Shown in pieces: positions 4,364 to 43,117 of a DNA stretch of 64,000 nt. Each line of letters starts with the position of its first letter. Within the stretch, counting starts at the first letter, position 1. Below the pieces are notes generated by a model. It did no database searches. It was not told where the DNA came from and saw nothing but the letters and a program-made list of their open reading frames with translations. A program made the translations under genes and the position numbers. The DNA comes from Pedobacter sp. MR2016-24 (GTDB taxonomy: Bacteria; Bacteroidota; Bacteroidia; Sphingobacteriales; Sphingobacteriaceae): positions 248,001 to 312,000 of the forward strand of contig NZ_JAPIVO010000008.1 of assembly GCF_026239655.1 (NCBI RefSeq), given 5' to 3'.

Positions 4364-6793
4364 TTATCTGGTTTTAACTGTTATCTGTCCGTTTTCCAAA
4401 CCTTCACTGATTGCCTGCAGCCGTGTGACTCCCTTCTCTTTTTGCGCCTGCAAAATAATTTGGCATTTACCATTGAATAACTTTCTTTTCCATTTCCCCT
4501 CTTCGCATTGATCTGCTTCATGACTGCTGGGATCACCATTGCCTACCCCAATGATTTTCAGACCACTTTGTACGGAAAATTCAACGCTTGAGTTTACATC
4601 GGGAACCGACCTTCCCTGCTTGTCTACAGCTGTCACATTCACCACAACAACATCTTTTCCATCTGCTTGAACCTGTGCCCGATTCGCATCAAGTACCAAA
4701 CGGTAAGGGCTTCCGGTAGTTTCTATTTTAGCTGTTATCTTTTTTCCTTTTTTATAAGCTATGGCTGATAAAGTACCGGGATGGTAGGGCACGTTCCATT
4801 TCAGGTGACTGTTGCGTGGCATTGTTTTTTGCCCCTGACTTTTACCATTCAGGAATAACTCTACTTTATCGGCATTGGTATTTACCCAAACCTCTATGGG
4901 CTGCCCCTCTTTTCCTTTCCAGTTCCAGTGTGGCGAAAGGTGCAGCACATCTTTATCTGTCCACCAGGATTGATAGTAATAATAAATATTTTTCGGAAAA
5001 CCACAAACATCCATCACCCCGAAATGTGAATTGATATTTGGCCATTCATAAGGTGTAGGCTCCCCTCTGTAATCAAATCCTGTCCAGATAAATCCGCCCT
5101 GCCAAAAATCATTTTCCGCAGCAAGCGTCCACCACTCTTCAGCTTTACTGGCCCACCAGGGTGCAGTAATGTCCTGATCTGGCACATAACCGGCTATAGA
5201 ATCTTTCACATAAATACCTCTGGTGGTTACTGTGCTCCCCATCTCTGTACCTATAAGAGGCTGATCAGGATGATCTTTATGGTAATCGGCAACGGCAAAC
5301 TGACGATAATTAAATCCCCTTACAGGGATTACCTCATTAACGCCATTAAACACGTTGGGCAGATCGGCGGCATAAGTACTGGTACGGTAAGGATCCAGTT
5401 CATGCTGTTTTGCCAATAGCGTCTGTGCAATACGTTTACCTACGGAACTGGTTTGCAGTAAACCTTCCTCGTTACCTATGGACCATAAAAATATGCTGGG
5501 ATGGTTTCTGTCTCTTTTGATCAGCCTTTCTAACTGTGACAGGTATTCAGCGCCACTGTTTAACAAGCGCTGCTCATCTAGCACCAACATTCCCAGGCTA
5601 TCGCAGGCGGCGAGCAATTCCGGCGTTGGTGCATGGTGACTCGCCCTGTAGGCATTACAGCCCATTTGTTTCAATAAGCTTATCCGGTAATACTGCATCT
5701 CATCTGGTAAAGCGCTACCGAGACCGGCATGATCCTGATGGTTGTTTGTCCCCTGTATCTTAATGTGTTTCCCGTTCAGAAAAAAGCCCTTTACAGGATC
5801 CATATGAATAGTTCTGATGCCATAACGCGTCACCGTACTATCCAATACTTTGGTTCCGGATTTTAAAAGGGTAACGACTTTATAGAGATAAGGATCTTCG
5901 AGCGACCAGCGTTTGGGCTGATCCAGGTTTATCACCTGCTTAGTCTGTCCCTTTGCATTCACCGCAAGGTCGAGATGCTGTACTGCTGCAGCTGATACCT
6001 TTCGGCCATTTCTATCTGTAATATAACTATACAATTGTATTTTACCAGGCTGCTGCCCCAGGTTCTGTACGGTTGATTCTACGGTCACCCTTGCTTTTTG
6101 ATCTTCTATATCAGCATGAATAAAAATTCCGTCTTGCGGCAGATGAATATTGTCATACTGGTTGAGCCAGACATGCCTGTAGATCCCTGCCCCCTCATAA
6201 AACCAGCCCTCATATTGGGTAGCATCTACCCTCACTGCAATCACATTGTCTTTCCCATAAATAAGGTTGTCTGTCAGATCATAACTGACCCCCAGGTAAC
6301 CACTGGCATTCCTGCCGAGATATATACCATTGACCCATACCTCCGCATCTCTGAAAATCCCGTCAAACTGTACCTGGAAACGCTGACCTGAATCTGCTTT
6401 TGACACAGTAAAATGTTTACGGTACCAACCGATGCTTGTTGCAGCAAATAAACCTCCTACCGGCTTATAACCATGTGCCAGAACATCTGCATTGGCAGAT
6501 TGTGCAAATGGAAGTCCCGCTGCCCAGTCATGCGGCAGATTCAATTTCCGCCATGCTGTATCGTCAAATACAGGACTAATTGCGGTCTGCTCTGCTTTGC
6601 CGGATTTAGCAAATAAGTTGGCTACTTTATAATTAAAGTCTTTAGCAGGATCAGCAGCATGCCCGAGACTGAATCTCCAGCCTTCATCAAAATTGAGGTG
6701 TGAGGGAAGAGAAGTTTTCTGGGCAGAAACAGGTTTCGGGCTAAAGAACTGGATGCTGGAAAGCAACAGGAACAATTTTATAAAATAGCGCAT
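4364..6793 (-). CDS. Secreted GH2 beta-galactosidase of the galactan locus
   Basis: About 809 residues from the ATG at 6793. That start gives a clean signal peptide (MRYFIKLFLLLSSIQFFS) and leaves 10 nt after the upstream stop. An earlier in-frame start at 6826 would overlap the previous gene. The order is sugar-binding jelly roll (about 25-200), Ig-like domain, TIM barrel (about 300-580) and C-terminal beta domains. Acid/base Glu is in FLWSIGNEEG (about residue 442), and the nucleophile Glu is in LIGTEMGS (about residue 517). It should remove terminal beta-linked galactose in the periplasm from galacto-oligosaccharides made by the GH53 enzyme. It is the last gene of the galactan operon, matching the GH2-GH53-SusE-SusD-SusC order of the Bacteroides thetaiotaomicron galactan locus. 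Confidence 0.9.
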   Translation of the reverse strand: MRYFIKLFLLLSSIQFFSPKPVSAQKTSLPSHLNFDEGWRFSLGHAADPAKDFNYKVANLFAKSGKAEQTAISPVFDDTAWRKLNLPHDWAAGLPFAQSANADVLAHGYKPVGGLFAATSIGWYRKHFTVSKADSGQRFQVQFDGIFRDAEVWVNGIYLGRNASGYLGVSYDLTDNLIYGKDNVIAVRVDATQYEGWFYEGAGIYRHVWLNQYDNIHLPQDGIFIHADIEDQKARVTVESTVQNLGQQPGKIQLYSYITDRNGRKVSAAAVQHLDLAVNAKGQTKQVINLDQPKRWSLEDPYLYKVVTLLKSGTKVLDSTVTRYGIRTIHMDPVKGFFLNGKHIKIQGTNNHQDHAGLGSALPDEMQYYRISLLKQMGCNAYRASHHAPTPELLAACDSLGMLVLDEQRLLNSGAEYLSQLERLIKRDRNHPSIFLWSIGNEEGLLQTSSVGKRIAQTLLAKQHELDPYRTSTYAADLPNVFNGVNEVIPVRGFNYRQFAVADYHKDHPDQPLIGTEMGSTVTTRGIYVKDSIAGYVPDQDITAPWWASKAEEWWTLAAENDFWQGGFIWTGFDYRGEPTPYEWPNINSHFGVMDVCGFPKNIYYYYQSWWTDKDVLHLSPHWNWKGKEGQPIEVWVNTNADKVELFLNGKSQGQKTMPRNSHLKWNVPYHPGTLSAIAYKKGKKITAKIETTGSPYRLVLDANRAQVQADGKDVVVVNVTAVDKQGRSVPDVNSSVEFSVQSGLKIIGVGNGDPSSHEADQCEEGKWKRKLFNGKCQIILQAQKEKGVTRLQAISEGLENGQITVKTR

Positions 6794-38098: not shown

Positions 38099-39463
38099 CT
38101 ATTTTAGTGATGAATACTTTACAACTGCATACTTACCCGTCTTTTTAGCCGGAAACAGGCCTATATTCAGAGAAAACGATACCCCTACCGACTTCAAATC
38201 TACATTTCCGTTTCCTATTCCCGTGAGCGGTAGCTTGGCAAAAGGCTGTAGCCCTACGCTGAAAGATTCATTTATCCGATGGTCGAAGCTGAGCGAAATA
38301 TTTGCTATACCGAAAAGATGTTTGTTTTGATTCTGCACTTCCAATGTAGACACCTGCTGCCCCGCTCCGGCAGCCCCGGTAATAAATTCGTACTTTTCTT
38401 TCAGCATAAAATAACTCGATAAGCCAGTATTCACACTCACAGAAAGCCGCTTTTTATTTAACAGCTTGTAGTTCACATTCAGTGGAATATCCAGCACATT
38501 ACAGTCTGCATCTACCTCCCAATCCTGCGCCGCGGCATAAGGATTATCCTGCGGAGCGGTACCCGCAGAGTTATAATATTTTTTAGCATAAATCGCACCG
38601 GAAGTCACGCTGAATTTCGGGCTCAATGCATAAGTTGCCAGCATCCCCAGGTTGGAACTCACCTTTGAGGATTTGCTCGGTTTTGCCGTAGTAATATCAG
38701 GAGCAGCCATAGCACTCAGAATTAAGGTATTTCGTGGGGACAACGCTGTTTCCATATTTTTTTGCACACTTCTTGCAATTTCAGTGGGCGTAATTTTTTC
38801 GAAAGGATCTTTACTCTGCGCCAATGCATTAGCCTTTTTTTCCAGCGCTATCCTATCGCGTTCAGCAGCTGTGCTGACATCCGCAACCTCTTTACTTGAG
38901 TGTGCTAATGTAGAAGAAACCTGTAGATTGACCTCTGGTCTCATCAGATTAATACCTGAATTTATGCCATCATTTGCGGTAATGGCACTTAATAAAGGCA
39001 AAACAGGCGGTGCCTGTTCAGTCATCAATCCCACGGCAGTTGTCCTGCCACTGATATTCCCGGCTATTTGCACTTGTGAATAGAACTGTTGACCTGTTTC
39101 CTGGTGGATATGGGTATCTGCTGAATTTATTTGATGCTCAGCACGATTCATTTTCAGATCCGCAGTGTTATTTTCCAGCTCTGCCTTTTTAATCCCTGGT
39201 TTTACCGGTTCAACCGAGGAGAGTTCTTCGCCCCCCTTTTTATTAATTTCCACAGGAGTGGAGAGCAACCAGAATAATACCACCGTCAACACTGCGGCAA
39301 TACCTGTCGCCGTATATAACCACATTGGAATCAGGCGTTTTTTGTTTTCTGTTCCATCCAGTTTACGCTCCATTTTCTCCCAGTCCAGTTCATTGAAAGG
39401 AATTTCAGGATCACTTAGTCCGTTTTTAAATAGCTGATCTATATCGTTCTCGTTTTCCATCAC
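38099..39463 (-). CDS. Membrane-anchored partner of the sigma factor, with C-terminal beta-barrel-like domain
   Basis: 454 residues. The N-terminal 45 residues are cytoplasmic and charged ('FNELDWEKMERKLDG', a motif common to anti-sigma-like proteins beside Bacteroidota ECF sigma factors). One transmembrane helix lies at about 47-67 (MWLYTATGIAAVLTVVLFWL), followed by a long low-complexity periplasmic linker to about 270. The C-terminal 180 residues look like an outer-membrane beta-barrel (PorT type), with alternating strands such as 'FSVTSGAIYAKKYYN' and 'HRINESFSVGLQPFAKLPL'. It starts 3 nt after the sigma-factor stop. It could anchor and inhibit the sigma factor and sense the outer envelope; this is an inference. 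Confidence 0.8.
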   Translation of the reverse strand: MMENENDIDQLFKNGLSDPEIPFNELDWEKMERKLDGTENKKRLIPMWLYTATGIAAVLTVVLFWLLSTPVEINKKGGEELSSVEPVKPGIKKAELENNTADLKMNRAEHQINSADTHIHQETGQQFYSQVQIAGNISGRTTAVGLMTEQAPPVLPLLSAITANDGINSGINLMRPEVNLQVSSTLAHSSKEVADVSTAAERDRIALEKKANALAQSKDPFEKITPTEIARSVQKNMETALSPRNTLILSAMAAPDITTAKPSKSSKVSSNLGMLATYALSPKFSVTSGAIYAKKYYNSAGTAPQDNPYAAAQDWEVDADCNVLDIPLNVNYKLLNKKRLSVSVNTGLSSYFMLKEKYEFITGAAGAGQQVSTLEVQNQNKHLFGIANISLSFDHRINESFSVGLQPFAKLPLTGIGNGNVDLKSVGVSFSLNIGLFPAKKTGKYAVVKYSSLK

Positions 39464-39466
39464 TAT

Positions 39467-40072
39467 TTATCGATTTTTTGCTGGCATTTCATTGTTAACA
39501 TTTATAGGATTAACCCCTTGTCTGGCAATGAAGCTAACATCTGCTTTTAAACTACCGTTTATTGTTGCCAGCTTCTCTTGCAATTTTTGTCGCGCTTTAA
39601 ATAAATTGGATTTCGAAGTACCCGTAGAAATTTTTAACAGCTCTGCTATTTCTTCATGCGAATACCCATCTATAGCATACAGATTGAACACGGTGCGATA
39701 CGCAGGAGATAGTCCCTGGATCAGTGCCAACAACTCTTTGTAGGCCAGCTGACTATAAACTATTGCCGCATCACCGATATGTTCCAGGGTGCTTACATCC
39801 TCATGGTCAGCAAATTTTAGATTGGCGCGGTAATGATCTATCGCAGTATTGGTGATAATTTTTCCGATCCATGATTTAAATGGTTTTTCGGGATCGTATT
39901 TCTCTATGTTGTTGAATATTTTCAGGAAACCATCATTCAGCACATCCGCAGCATCCTCGTCATCTAATGCATAACGTCTGCATATAGCCAGTCCATAACT
40001 ATAAAATTCTTTATAGAGTAAGTACTGACTGGACCTGTCTTTTTTGATGCACCCGCTGATGATTCTCTGCAC
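39467..40072 (-). CDS. ECF sigma factor
   Basis: 201 residues. Region 2 has 'DDEDAADVLNDGFLKIFNNI' and 'KPFKSWIGKIITNTAIDHYR'; region 4 has 'LSPAYRTVFNLYAIDGYSHE' and 'EIAELLKISTGTSKSNLFKA'. The spacing is that of a typical ECF factor. It directs transcription of envelope or stress genes when released by its partner, the membrane protein encoded 3 nt downstream. It is divergent from the lipoprotein-cytochrome operon at 40247, which is a possible target. The intergenic stretch (40073-40246) holds a perfect palindrome CCGTATACGG (40107-40116) and a GGTTGCC/GGCAACC inverted repeat (40132-40138 and 40170-40176). Confidence 0.93.
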   Translation of the reverse strand: MQRIISGCIKKDRSSQYLLYKEFYSYGLAICRRYALDDEDAADVLNDGFLKIFNNIEKYDPEKPFKSWIGKIITNTAIDHYRANLKFADHEDVSTLEHIGDAAIVYSQLAYKELLALIQGLSPAYRTVFNLYAIDGYSHEEIAELLKISTGTSKSNLFKARQKLQEKLATINGSLKADVSFIARQGVNPINVNNEMPAKNR

Positions 40073-40246
40073 CTTTTTTATGATTTAAGCTGAGTCATTT
40101 TCTACCCCGTATACGGACAGTTTTTACAAAAGGTTGCCCCGAAAAAAAATTTATTTATCTGCTTGCACAGGCAACCGGCAGCAGTAATGTAACGTAATCG
40201 CTACAATCGATTAAATATATCGTTTCATTCTAAAAGTAAAGAAATT

Positions 40247-41134
40247 ATGTTGGTAATTCTTAAAAGAAATCTGGCTTTAATAAGCCTGGCAGGACTGATG
40301 GTCTTTGCTTCATGCTCAAAAAATAACGATGCTCCGGAAGACGCGGGGAAAGATCCGTATGGTAATCCTGTTACACCAGGAGGTACTGCCGCCAGCTCCG
40401 GTTTGCAGTTAGCCACCTCAACTACATTTGGCAGTGTATTTACTGATGGTAACGGAAAAGCTTTATATGCATTTGCAATAGATGCGAACGGCACTTCCGG
40501 ATGTGTAGATGGCTGCCTGTTAGCCTGGCCGGTCTATTATGCGGGCAATGAAACTGCACCAGCCGGAGTAGCGGCTACAGATATTGCGACCATCACACGT
40601 GCAGACGGCAGGAAACAAACCACTTATAAAGGCTGGCCATTGTATTACTATAGCGGAGATGCGACGAAAGCAGATATTAAAGGTGACGGTGTAGGGGGAA
40701 CCTGGTTTGTTGCAAAACCTGATTATTCAGTCATGTTTGCCAAAACACAACTGGTGGGCCGTGATACGAAAAACTATACCGCCGAAGGTGTTGAAGGTAC
40801 AGGTGAAACGGTTTACCTGACGGATGCAGCAGGTAAAACCTTATATGCTTACGCACCAGATACATTTAATGTAAATACCTATACCGAAGCAGACTTAAGC
40901 AACAATGCGCTCTGGCCCATCTTTGAATCTGAGATCCTGAACGTACCATCTATCATCAAAAAAGATGTCATTGTACAAATCACTGCAGCAGGTAAAAAAC
41001 AATTGACCTATAAAGGACATCCGCTTTATTATTTCGGTGGTGATGCCAAACGTGGTGAAACTAAAGGAGTAAGCGTACCTGCACCCGGCGTATGGCCTAT
41101 CCTGACTGTAAACACGCCAGCTTTAACTAAATAA
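40247..41134 (+). CDS. PF03640-type repeat lipoprotein
   Basis: 295 residues. Lipoprotein signal (ISLAGLMVFASCSKN). Two copies of the 'secreted repeat of unknown function' unit can be read: 'GKALYAFAIDANGTSGCVDG' with 'AWPVYY' and then 'RKQTTYKGWPLYYYSGDATK'; and 'GKTLYAYAPDTFNVN' with 'LWPIF' and then 'KKQLTYKGHPLYYFGGDAKR'. The family is found in exported proteins across phyla and its role is unknown. It is the first gene of a four-gene operon that also encodes a c-type cytochrome, which hints at a redox or metal-linked role in the periplasm. Confidence 0.88.
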   Translation: MLVILKRNLALISLAGLMVFASCSKNNDAPEDAGKDPYGNPVTPGGTAASSGLQLATSTTFGSVFTDGNGKALYAFAIDANGTSGCVDGCLLAWPVYYAGNETAPAGVAATDIATITRADGRKQTTYKGWPLYYYSGDATKADIKGDGVGGTWFVAKPDYSVMFAKTQLVGRDTKNYTAEGVEGTGETVYLTDAAGKTLYAYAPDTFNVNTYTEADLSNNALWPIFESEILNVPSIIKKDVIVQITAAGKKQLTYKGHPLYYFGGDAKRGETKGVSVPAPGVWPILTVNTPALTK

Positions 41135-41141
41135 ATTTCAT

Positions 41142-41507
41142 ATGTTAAAATATCCGATCACCACCATCGCTATTGCATTTGTTTACCTCCTGCTGGCCTG
41201 CTGTTCAAAAAAGCAGGCTGAGGAGATCAAACCTGATCAGCCCCCGACTGAAAAGCCGGGTACAAATGTAAGTTTCGCCAGTTTTGTGCAGCCCCTGTTG
41301 CAAACCAAATGTGCCGGATGCCATGCGCCGGGCCGTTCTGCAGCAGCCATCTGGAGCTTTAATGGCTATACCTCGGTCACCGCTAATGCAGACCGGATAA
41401 AAGATGCTGTACTGGTAAAAAAATCTATGCCGCTGGGCGGAACGATTACTGCGTCCGACCTGCAATCGCTCCAGGCCTGGTTTGACCAGGGTACACTTAA
41501 CAACTAA
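41142..41507 (+). CDS. Mono-haem c-type cytochrome lipoprotein
   Basis: 121 residues. Lipoprotein signal 'AFVYLLLACCSKK'. A single haem-binding C-x-x-C-H (KCAGCH, residues 57-61) and a plausible Met axial ligand in 'KKSMPLGGTI' (about residue 91) mark a small cytochrome c domain of the type fused in Planctomycete cytochrome proteins. It would carry electrons at the periplasmic face of a membrane. It lies 7 nt after the PF03640 lipoprotein and 12 nt before YceI. No oxidase or dehydrogenase partner is in the operon. Confidence 0.88.
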   Translation: MLKYPITTIAIAFVYLLLACCSKKQAEEIKPDQPPTEKPGTNVSFASFVQPLLQTKCAGCHAPGRSAAAIWSFNGYTSVTANADRIKDAVLVKKSMPLGGTITASDLQSLQAWFDQGTLNN

Positions 41508-41519
41508 AAAACTGATCTC

Positions 41520-42068
41520 ATGAAAAGAATGATTCTGCTATTTGGCCTCTGCTTATCTTTCATGGCAGCCGGAGCCCAAAATATTTTTGTAAGTAAAGCG
41601 ACCTCCATTACGTTTTTCTCCAGTACTCCTGTTGAAGATATTGAAGGGAAAAGCACTACTGCAAGTTCCGTAGTGGATATTAAATCCCGCAACATTGTGT
41701 TTAAAGTGTCGAATACCTCTTTTCAGTTTAAAAAAAAACTGATGCAGGAGCATTTCAATGAAAATTATATAGAGAGTGACAAATATCCTTTTTCAATTTT
41801 CAGGGGGAAAATCACAGACGATGTAGACCTGAGCAAGGATGGCAGTTATACCGTAAATGTCGAGGGTACCCTGGATATACACGGCGTTACAAAAGCTTAC
41901 CAAAGTAAAGCCAATATTGTAGTGGCCAAAGGAGTAATCACTGCCCGCACTACAATAAGGGTCAAAATTGAGGATCACCAGATCAAGGTTCCTTCTATCG
42001 TATTTAAAAACATCGCGGAATTTGTCGACGTGCGCATATCGGCAACTTATCAACCCAAAAAATCATGA
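41520..42068 (+). CDS. YceI family periplasmic protein
   Basis: 182 residues with a signal peptide (MKRMILLFGLCLSFMAAGAQ). The YceI lipocalin-like barrel is visible: 'ATSITFFSSTPVEDIEGKS', 'NIVFKVSNTSFQFKKKLMQE', 'KYPFSIFRGKITDDVDLSKD', 'YTVNVEGTLDIHGVTKAYQS' and 'IKVPSIVFKNIAEFVDVRIS'. The fold binds polyisoprenoid-like lipids. Its stop overlaps the next start (ATGA), so the two are coupled. Confidence 0.92.
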   Translation: MKRMILLFGLCLSFMAAGAQNIFVSKATSITFFSSTPVEDIEGKSTTASSVVDIKSRNIVFKVSNTSFQFKKKLMQEHFNENYIESDKYPFSIFRGKITDDVDLSKDGSYTVNVEGTLDIHGVTKAYQSKANIVVAKGVITARTTIRVKIEDHQIKVPSIVFKNIAEFVDVRISATYQPKKS

Positions 42069-43039
42069 CGACAAAACCTTTTTATTTTAACGTGGTAAAA
42101 TGCTTAATCCTTTTACTGTTGGTTTCCAGGTCACTCACCAGTTATGGACAGACCGAACTGGAAAAGGACCTGGAAAATACAGCGCCTGCACATGAAAAGG
42201 TAAGCGCTACTTTTAAGTCTACCAAACTCATTAATGGCCACACCAATGAAACGATTTACAAACATGAGCTCGACTTTAAAGTAGATCACCGTTTTGGGGA
42301 TATTGCAGGGAGCAATGGTGGATTAAGGCAGTTTTTTGGACTGGACAATTCAACTGATGTACGTATCGGTTTTGATTATGGGATCAGTGACCGGCTGAAT
42401 GTAGGATTTGCCAGGGCAAAAGGAGCGACCACCGTGCAGCAGCTGTACGAATTTAATGTGAAGTACAGACTGCTGGAGCAGACTACAGATGATTATGTTC
42501 CCGTAGCAGTGACTTTGTTCGGCAGCAATACCATTGCCGCCGTGAAGGCCAGTGACGATCCTGCATCAGCGACTGCTTACCGTAACCTGACAGACCGGAT
42601 GAATTATGTTACCCAGATCATCTTTGCAAGGAAATTTAATTCCAGTTTCTCTGTTTCCTTAACGCCTGGTTATGTACACCGGAATTTTACCGCCTTCAGG
42701 GATCAGAACAATATGTTTTCTGTAGGCGCCGGAGCCCGCGCAAAAATCACCAAAAGAATGGCACTGGTAGTTGATTATTTTATGCCTTTCAGGAATAAAG
42801 ATGATGAAGCCTACCTGGAGCAACTCAATGGGGTGAAATTCTATAACACTTTAGGTGTAGGCCTGGAAATGGAAACAGGCGGACATATTTTCCATCTCAA
42901 CTTTACTAATGCAACCGCTATTCAGGAGATGCAGTTTATCCCGCAAACCACCAGCTCATGGTTAAAAGGGCAATACAGGTGGGGCTTTAGTATAGCCCGC
43001 AGGTTCTCATTTGATAAGAAAAAAGATAAGCGGTCTTAG
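42065..43039 (+). CDS. DUF5777 family outer-membrane beta-barrel protein
   Basis: 324 residues. Signal peptide ending 'SLTSYGQT'. The rest shows alternating amphipathic strands: 'TFKSTKLINGHTNETI', 'ELDFKVDHRFGDIAGSNGGL', 'RIGFDYGISDRLNVGFARAK' and 'NMFSVGAGARAKITKRMALV'. The end is 'YRWGFSIARRFSFDKK'. It matches the DUF5777 pattern and is expected to form a barrel in the outer membrane. It is translationally coupled to YceI and is the last gene of the operon. A 12-bp stem terminator follows. Confidence 0.85.
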   Translation: MTTKPFYFNVVKCLILLLLVSRSLTSYGQTELEKDLENTAPAHEKVSATFKSTKLINGHTNETIYKHELDFKVDHRFGDIAGSNGGLRQFFGLDNSTDVRIGFDYGISDRLNVGFARAKGATTVQQLYEFNVKYRLLEQTTDDYVPVAVTLFGSNTIAAVKASDDPASATAYRNLTDRMNYVTQIIFARKFNSSFSVSLTPGYVHRNFTAFRDQNNMFSVGAGARAKITKRMALVVDYFMPFRNKDDEAYLEQLNGVKFYNTLGVGLEMETGGHIFHLNFTNATAIQEMQFIPQTTSSWLKGQYRWGFSIARRFSFDKKKDKRS

Positions 43040-43083
43040 CACGAATGCAGAGATCGCTGATGCATTCATCATATCATTATACC

Positions 43084-43114
43084 AAACAGTAATCCTTATC
43101 CGGGATTACTGTTT
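43084..43114. terminator. Bidirectional terminator hairpin
   Basis: AAACAGTAATCC (43084-43095) and GGATTACTGTTT (43103-43114) form a perfect 12-bp stem around a 7-nt loop. It lies between the convergent DUF5777 gene (stop 43039) and the esterase gene (stop 43118), so it can end both transcripts. Confidence 0.8.
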
Positions 43115-43117
43115 GTG

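Follow-up and report, generated by a model that had tools for sequence, protein, structure and literature searches.

The core of the system described here is a unit of three genes, encoding an electron carrier, a YceI-type lipocalin and a DUF5777 outer-membrane protein, which by its gene neighborhoods is conserved in many Bacteroidota. In Pedobacter sp. MR2016-24 it is very probably driven by a divergently encoded extracytoplasmic function (ECF) sigma factor. It lies at positions 40247-43039 of a 64,000-nucleotide stretch of contig NZ_JAPIVO010000008.1 (assembly GCF_026239655.1, positions 248,001 to 312,000 of the forward strand), the whole of which is called the window below. We tentatively read it as a stress-inducible redox module of the outer membrane that may act on a prenyl lipid, by analogy with the BcnA/LcoA system of Burkholderia cenocepacia. 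This reading falls somewhat short of being probable, and it is put first because the module shares the functions of a lipocalin and an electron-transfer protein with that system. Linkage and control by the sigma factor are strongly indicated, and the exact chemistry is offered as a hypothesis.

Four plus-strand open reading frames (ORFs) fill the segment, with gaps of 7, 12 and -4 nt, the last being an ATGA overlap, and the four tightly packed genes and families described in an initial annotation of this DNA were confirmed. The first gene (40247-41134) encodes a PF03640 lipoprotein (9e-36, in three stretches), the second (41142-41507) a mono-heme cytochrome c lipoprotein with predicted His/Met ligation (PF13442, 0.0014), the third (41520-42068) a YceI-type lipocalin with a signal peptide (PF04264, 8e-10), and the fourth (42065-43039) the DUF5777 protein (PF19089, 2.3e-87). 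The PF03640 and DUF5777 matches are well above the Pfam cut-off; signal peptides and lipoboxes were identified by eye. A terminator-like hairpin on the plus strand (43083-43115; 14 pairs, -19.7 kcal/mol, z -6.0), which begins 43 nt past the DUF5777 gene and has a T-rich tail, suggests that the gene run ends there, with the caveat that the terminator scan as a whole gave 7 such sites against 5.7 in shuffles, which is about the same number.

Conservation was assessed in 181 loci: the window, 40 places from relatives (in 39 of 48 other matching genomes), 60 places hand-picked among the listed rows for the 259 DUF5777-positive genomes of a 295-genome draw from the class (four of these genomes contributed two each), and the best 80 of 583 further loci, a set which favors similar sequences. 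Seven loci were dropped as at least 97% identical, leaving the 174 distinct loci behind every count out of 174. A gene run was defined by a common strand and gaps of at most 300 nt, and a carrier was counted only if a heme motif or a Rieske ligand motif was found on top of the profile match. YceI lies inside the DUF5777 run in 147 of the 174 loci and is its direct same-strand neighbor in 142. This pairing exceeds chance; the genome of the window carries five YceI genes. A motif-checked carrier is present in 151 runs, and YceI together with a carrier in 130. Profile matches alone gave slightly higher numbers (cytochrome 129, Rieske 33, both 7, either 155, YceI with a carrier 133), the motif check having removed two Rieske matches (L130, L217) and three cytochrome-only matches (L127, L182, L207). 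The full combination was found in Pedobacter, Parapedobacter, Mucilaginibacter, Chitinophaga, Dyadobacter and Runella, and also in Cytophaga, Pontibacter, Hymenobacter, Gillisia and Christiangramia. There were no fusions between core families among the called genes of the 181 loci.

Conserved linkage, whose absence from other genomes would have led the initial annotation to withdraw its proposal, is thus present. The proposal that all four families form one unit holds for three of them only: carrier, YceI and DUF5777 are linked, whereas PF03640 is in the run at just 14 of the 174 loci, all of them from Pedobacter, Parapedobacter or the genus of the window. In nine genomes of that genus (L244-L249, L255, L256, L263) PF03640 is found together with the sigma/anti-sigma pair, away from the operon. 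PF03640 was therefore ruled out as a core member, since it tracks the sigma gene instead of the operon; it probably belongs to the regulon. Within the genome, PF03640 has three matches, each of them inside the 40247-41134 gene. Further downstream, hemD and DUF4271 follow the module in a subset of loci, as presumably does rnpA; nothing was concluded from any of them.

It is the carrier that argues most strongly for a redox role of the module. In the window the PF13442 match is below the cut-off, yet CAGCH, a downstream Met-Pro and the lipobox cysteine are present, and with them the CXXCH motif and axial Met by which class I cytochromes c are recognized. Among 24 linked homologs, the lipobox C21 as well as C57, C60, H61, P97 and W113 are invariant and M96 is nearly so (three have a longer Cys spacing), and this is the conservation pattern of a lipoprotein-borne class I cytochrome with His/Met ligation. 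The spacing of the heme-attachment site itself is variable: the 128 linked single-domain cytochromes, L051 and L060 among them, comprise 78 with CX2CH, 42 with CX4CH, 4 with CX3CH and 4 with none, an unusual spread within one cytochrome family.

A cytochrome c of this family occurs in 126 of the 174 runs and a Rieske 2Fe-2S lipoprotein in 31, with both in 6 and neither in 23. The two seldom occur together (Fisher 7.9e-12, kinship ignored), and the DUF5777 tree implies at least four switches between cytochrome-only and Rieske-only states. Pfam calls Rieske in all three proteins tested, among them one with an altered second ligand motif (L130). Because two unrelated carriers substitute for each other repeatedly, and one-electron transfer is the property that they share, a redox role of the module is likely, in agreement with what had been supposed at the outset. 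An electron- or quinone-linked process, to which the YceI family points, is plausible.

The carrier might, on the other hand, shuttle electrons for a periplasmic oxidoreductase or oxidase that is encoded elsewhere, in which case YceI and DUF5777 would merely stabilize or deliver a cofactor. The cytochrome does resemble c551, c6 and the c domains of bc1 complexes, and DUF5777 co-occurs with COX1, being present in 257 of 283 COX1-positive genomes versus 2 of 12 COX1-negative ones (Fisher 1.2e-8; lists compared by eye). However, the genes linked to the carrier encode a lipocalin and an outer-membrane barrel (YceI plus carrier at 130 of 174 loci), and no recurrent enzyme was seen in the inspected runs, the neighbors being annotated only in part. 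We thus regard the shuttle as improbable.

DUF5777 is confidently predicted to be a 12-strand outer-membrane barrel, as its AlphaFold2 model has 12 strands and a predicted local distance difference test score (pLDDT) of 93.2. The best folds retrieved by Foldseek are the porin-like NanC, FapF and OmpG (template modeling scores of 0.39-0.46 of the query), and a sequence search of the PDB gave no relative at E <=0.1. Among 93 sequences H75, R117, Q139, H274 and others are invariant, H205 is nearly so, and several Arg and Gln residues are almost unchanged. These fixed polar residues exceed what would be expected of a plain porin, and a site for a cofactor, a lipid or a partner is possible. The family was found in 259 of 295 genomes of the class and in 33 of 80 genomes of the phylum, including other classes, and in none of 14 control genomes. 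No clue to the function of PF03640 or DUF5777 came from Foldseek or from sequence searches of the PDB.

A barrel encoded beside a heme protein also brings to mind an outer-membrane electron conduit, in which the carrier and DUF5777 would link the periplasm to extracellular donors or acceptors and YceI would give a quinone or aid assembly. Interchangeable one-electron carriers would suit such a conduit, and proteins with an N-terminal CX2-4CH motif, which are probable exported heme proteins, are encoded near 11 distinct loci (L049, L056, L107, L141, L182, L183, L209, L211, L218, L226, L238). Two tested members of that family have a tail of the type IX secretion system (T9SS; PF18962) and a Reeler domain, and in L064 the gene at 5410-6030, directly upstream of a cytochrome-YceI-DUF5777 run, encodes a plastocyanin-type protein that has a T9SS sorting tail. 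A plastocyanin-seeded profile for counting cupredoxins was discarded, as it was contaminated by the shared T9SS tail. The cytochrome's N-terminus, CSKKQAEE, recalls surface-export signals such as KKEVEEE of MucG, but it is off the optimal position: QAEE occupies +5 to +8, whereas the lipoprotein export signal is C-X-K-(D/E)2 or Q-A-(D/E)2 at a set position, with C-X-K-(D/E)2-X as the optimum. The 12-strand barrel, moreover, has NanC, FapF and OmpG as its nearest solved folds, and no cytochrome conduit was found among the best 50 of 914 Foldseek matches. There is one heme per carrier in the window's family, and most loci show no exported heme partner. On balance we consider the conduit, the main rival of the prenyl-lipid reading, unlikely, although by no means far-fetched.

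The sigma factor gene (39467-40072, minus strand, with a GTG start as called; PF04542, PF08281 and TIGR02937, 2.4e-27) may have its true start inside the called ORF. Alignment of intergenic regions and pattern search revealed a promoter-like element, GGCAACC-N16-CGTA, facing the sigma gene at 40112-40138 (minus strand) and facing the operon at 40170-40196 (plus strand). When 19 divergent intergenic regions (two of them duplicates) were aligned, CAAC and CGTA were fixed on the operon side, and a matching reverse-strand element was found on the sigma side. CAAC-N17-CGTA lies upstream of 22 of 36 sigma genes with an adjacent anti-sigma gene (20 of 34 without duplicates), always with a spacer of 17 although 14-24 was permitted; in some of the remaining sigma genes the element is closer to the called start, or beyond it. 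A pattern search of the 5.83-Mb genome gave three matches to GGCAACC-N16-CGTA, and the two facing sites described here are the only non-coding ones. The third, inside a MurF-like gene, was taken as chance; a reversed control pattern had two matches.

Of 44 Sphingobacteriaceae loci, 37 have CAACC-N16-CGT[AG] close to where the first gene of the operon starts, compared with 2 of 130 other loci and 63 of 4000 random windows. All nine relocated sigma/PF03640 pairs carry the element in both directions, and the distant operon of the same genomes has retained it, exactly in seven (G009, G010, G011, G020, G027, G031, G034) and with a single mismatch in the other two (G003, locus L042; G007, locus L052). 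Since one element is common to the sigma gene, PF03640 and the operon, in cis as well as in trans, the sigma factor very probably drives all three, and the control by the divergent sigma factor that had been suggested for this operon is borne out.

Several related cases deserve mention. Beyond the loci assigned to Sphingobacteriaceae, seven more have a sigma/anti-sigma pair next to the operon, including those of Dyadobacter, Emticicia, Siphonobacter and Hymenobacter. A divergent gene beside the operon in Chitinophaga was rejected as an anti-sigma gene, its product being MurF-like by eye. In Parapedobacter defluvii (L172, 1899-4055) a 718-residue sigma ORF was considered as a Dma3-like fusion and rejected, as the sigma match stops near residue 120 and the rest of the ORF has no match to an anti-sigma factor; both promoter-like elements remain there. 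GGCAACC-N16-CGTA is also found upstream of a glutathione peroxidase (PF00255) gene in a few Pedobacter genomes (L251, L252, L257). Of 30 peroxidase loci, one further has the element with one mismatch and two with two mismatches, and we do not count the peroxidase as a general regulon member.

The stimulus might be sensed by the product of the gene next to the sigma factor (38099-39463, minus strand), a 454-residue anti-sigma candidate that begins 3 nt past the sigma gene and matches PF13568 below the cut-off (6e-5). Its AlphaFold2 model (overall pLDDT 71.7, predicted template modeling score 0.53) has helices at 6-40, a helix at 47-68, pLDDT below 50 over most of 73-195, and a C-terminal 8-strand barrel (strands 267-435, pLDDT mostly above 90) which Foldseek finds to be OmpA/NspA/OmpX-like. 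A Dma protein, as described in the accessible part of PMC13088901, consists of an N-terminal anti-sigma domain, a transmembrane helix, a long disordered tether and a C-terminal barrel, and is encoded beside an ECF21 sigma factor. The candidate is thus predicted by modeling to have a Dma-type, dual-membrane anti-sigma architecture. Dma1 and Dma2 influence vesiculation in Bacteroides (PMC13088901, accessible part), and YceI proteins bind lipids (PMC9113575, available portion). Together with the predicted architecture, this would fit a Dma-controlled homeostasis of outer-membrane lipids or vesicles, with the heme or Rieske protein acting as a redox sensor instead of an electron carrier. As 140 of the 174 loci are without an adjacent sigma/anti-sigma pair, we hold such homeostasis to be distinctly improbable.

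We return to the prenyl-lipid redox module. The profile of the operon's YceI retrieves from the PDB the structures of BcnB (5ixg), E. coli YceI (1y0g) and BcnA (5ixh), as identified in PMC9113575. In the mechanism that we propose, damage to or strain on the outer membrane would act on the Dma barrel and release the sigma factor, which would induce the redox unit along with more sigma and anti-sigma factor. YceI would carry menaquinone or a similar prenyl lipid. Tethered to the outer membrane, the carrier would re-reduce or oxidize the lipid bound by YceI, and this lipid could quench lipid radicals or exchange electrons at the outer membrane. DUF5777 would be a docking site or channel there, and the whole could operate as BcnA/LcoA does, cytochrome b561 being replaced by a cytochrome c or a Rieske protein. 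A polyprenyl synthetase is encoded within 4 kb of DUF5777 at 8 of the 174 loci, on the same strand at seven (L046, L050, L101, L189, L190, L191, L198; PF00348 in the one tested, L046), which is suggestive of a prenyl-lipid link. These neighbors and the peroxidase element fit the model weakly. The gene linkage, the exchange of carriers, the shared regulatory element, the co-occurrence of DUF5777 with COX1 and the BcnA/LcoA precedent also speak for it.

Besides the probable exported heme proteins mentioned above, which would better suit a conduit, several observations weigh against the mechanism. The sigma/anti-sigma pair adjoins the operon at only 34 of the 174 loci, and beyond Sphingobacteriaceae the element does not rise above background. 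At the peroxidase gene it is exact in 3 of 30 loci and missing at the copy in the window's own genome. No motif-checked carrier is found at 23 of the 174 loci and no YceI in the run at 27, some of these being interrupted by contig ends. There is no cytochrome b561 match at E <=0.1 in the operon's four genes or in the divergent pair, nor did we see, by eye, a cytochrome b561 beside the genome's other four YceI genes. At one of these (L295, C1:98500-105500) the run also encodes DUF3347, a protein with an HMA domain and an exported protein that Pfam does not match, perhaps a metal-linked YceI system. Finally, the COX1 correlation is confounded by kinship, five of the ten genomes without both genes belonging to one family.

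Neither the DUF5777 nor the PF03640 family has an assigned function. No paper on the module was found in the open-access literature, which does not show its absence from print, and in that literature neither DUF5777 nor COG4315 returned any paper. For PF03640 the matches listed held only unrelated work (viruses, repeat-protein modeling), and for YceI combined with Rieske, Bacteroidetes or genus names they held nothing on the module. YceI with cytochrome c and Bacteroidetes led to an iron-limitation study which, in its available part, lists a YceI gene. The open-access papers searched do not mention DUF5777 by name, although the family is present in 259 of the 295 genomes drawn from the class. 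A module common in oxygen-respiring Bacteroidota may, by analogy, protect or recharge envelope lipids, and it would offer a system for studying electron movement at, and protection of, the Gram-negative outer membrane, while the self-contained sigma/anti-sigma locus with its defined element is a readily testable switch. A more general idea is that the outer membrane of aerobic Bacteroidota has its own antioxidant or electron pool, namely a lipocalin-held prenyl lipid kept reduced by a swappable carrier docked to DUF5777, and induced in Pedobacter by a sensor that bridges both membranes; in so sweeping a form we think it doubtful.

Three known systems invite comparison. The porin-cytochrome conduits MtrCAB and Cyc2 combine an outer-membrane barrel with a c-type heme protein. 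The module is like them in having both. It probably differs from them in its predicted 12-strand barrel, and it differs in its separate mono-heme lipoprotein, the presence of a lipocalin and the substitution by Rieske proteins. The regulatory pair resembles Dma/Das of Bacteroides thetaiotaomicron (PMC13088901, accessible part) in predicted domain order and in the adjacent ECF sigma gene. It differs in its probable targets, which here are the redox module and PF03640, and the likeness is one of predicted architecture. The closest worked-out analog of the module is BcnA/LcoA. In Burkholderia, loss of either BcnA (YceI) or LcoA (cytochrome b561) raises lipid peroxidation, and the authors suggest that the ubiquinone bound by BcnA is reduced again by LcoA; "Bacteroid" is nowhere in the main text of that paper (PMC9113575). 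Both systems have a YceI lipocalin encoded with a heme electron-transfer protein, conserved synteny and an envelope location. They differ in that the carrier is a cytochrome c or Rieske protein here and a cytochrome b561 in LcoA, and the module adds a DUF5777 barrel and, in the window, an ECF/Dma switch.

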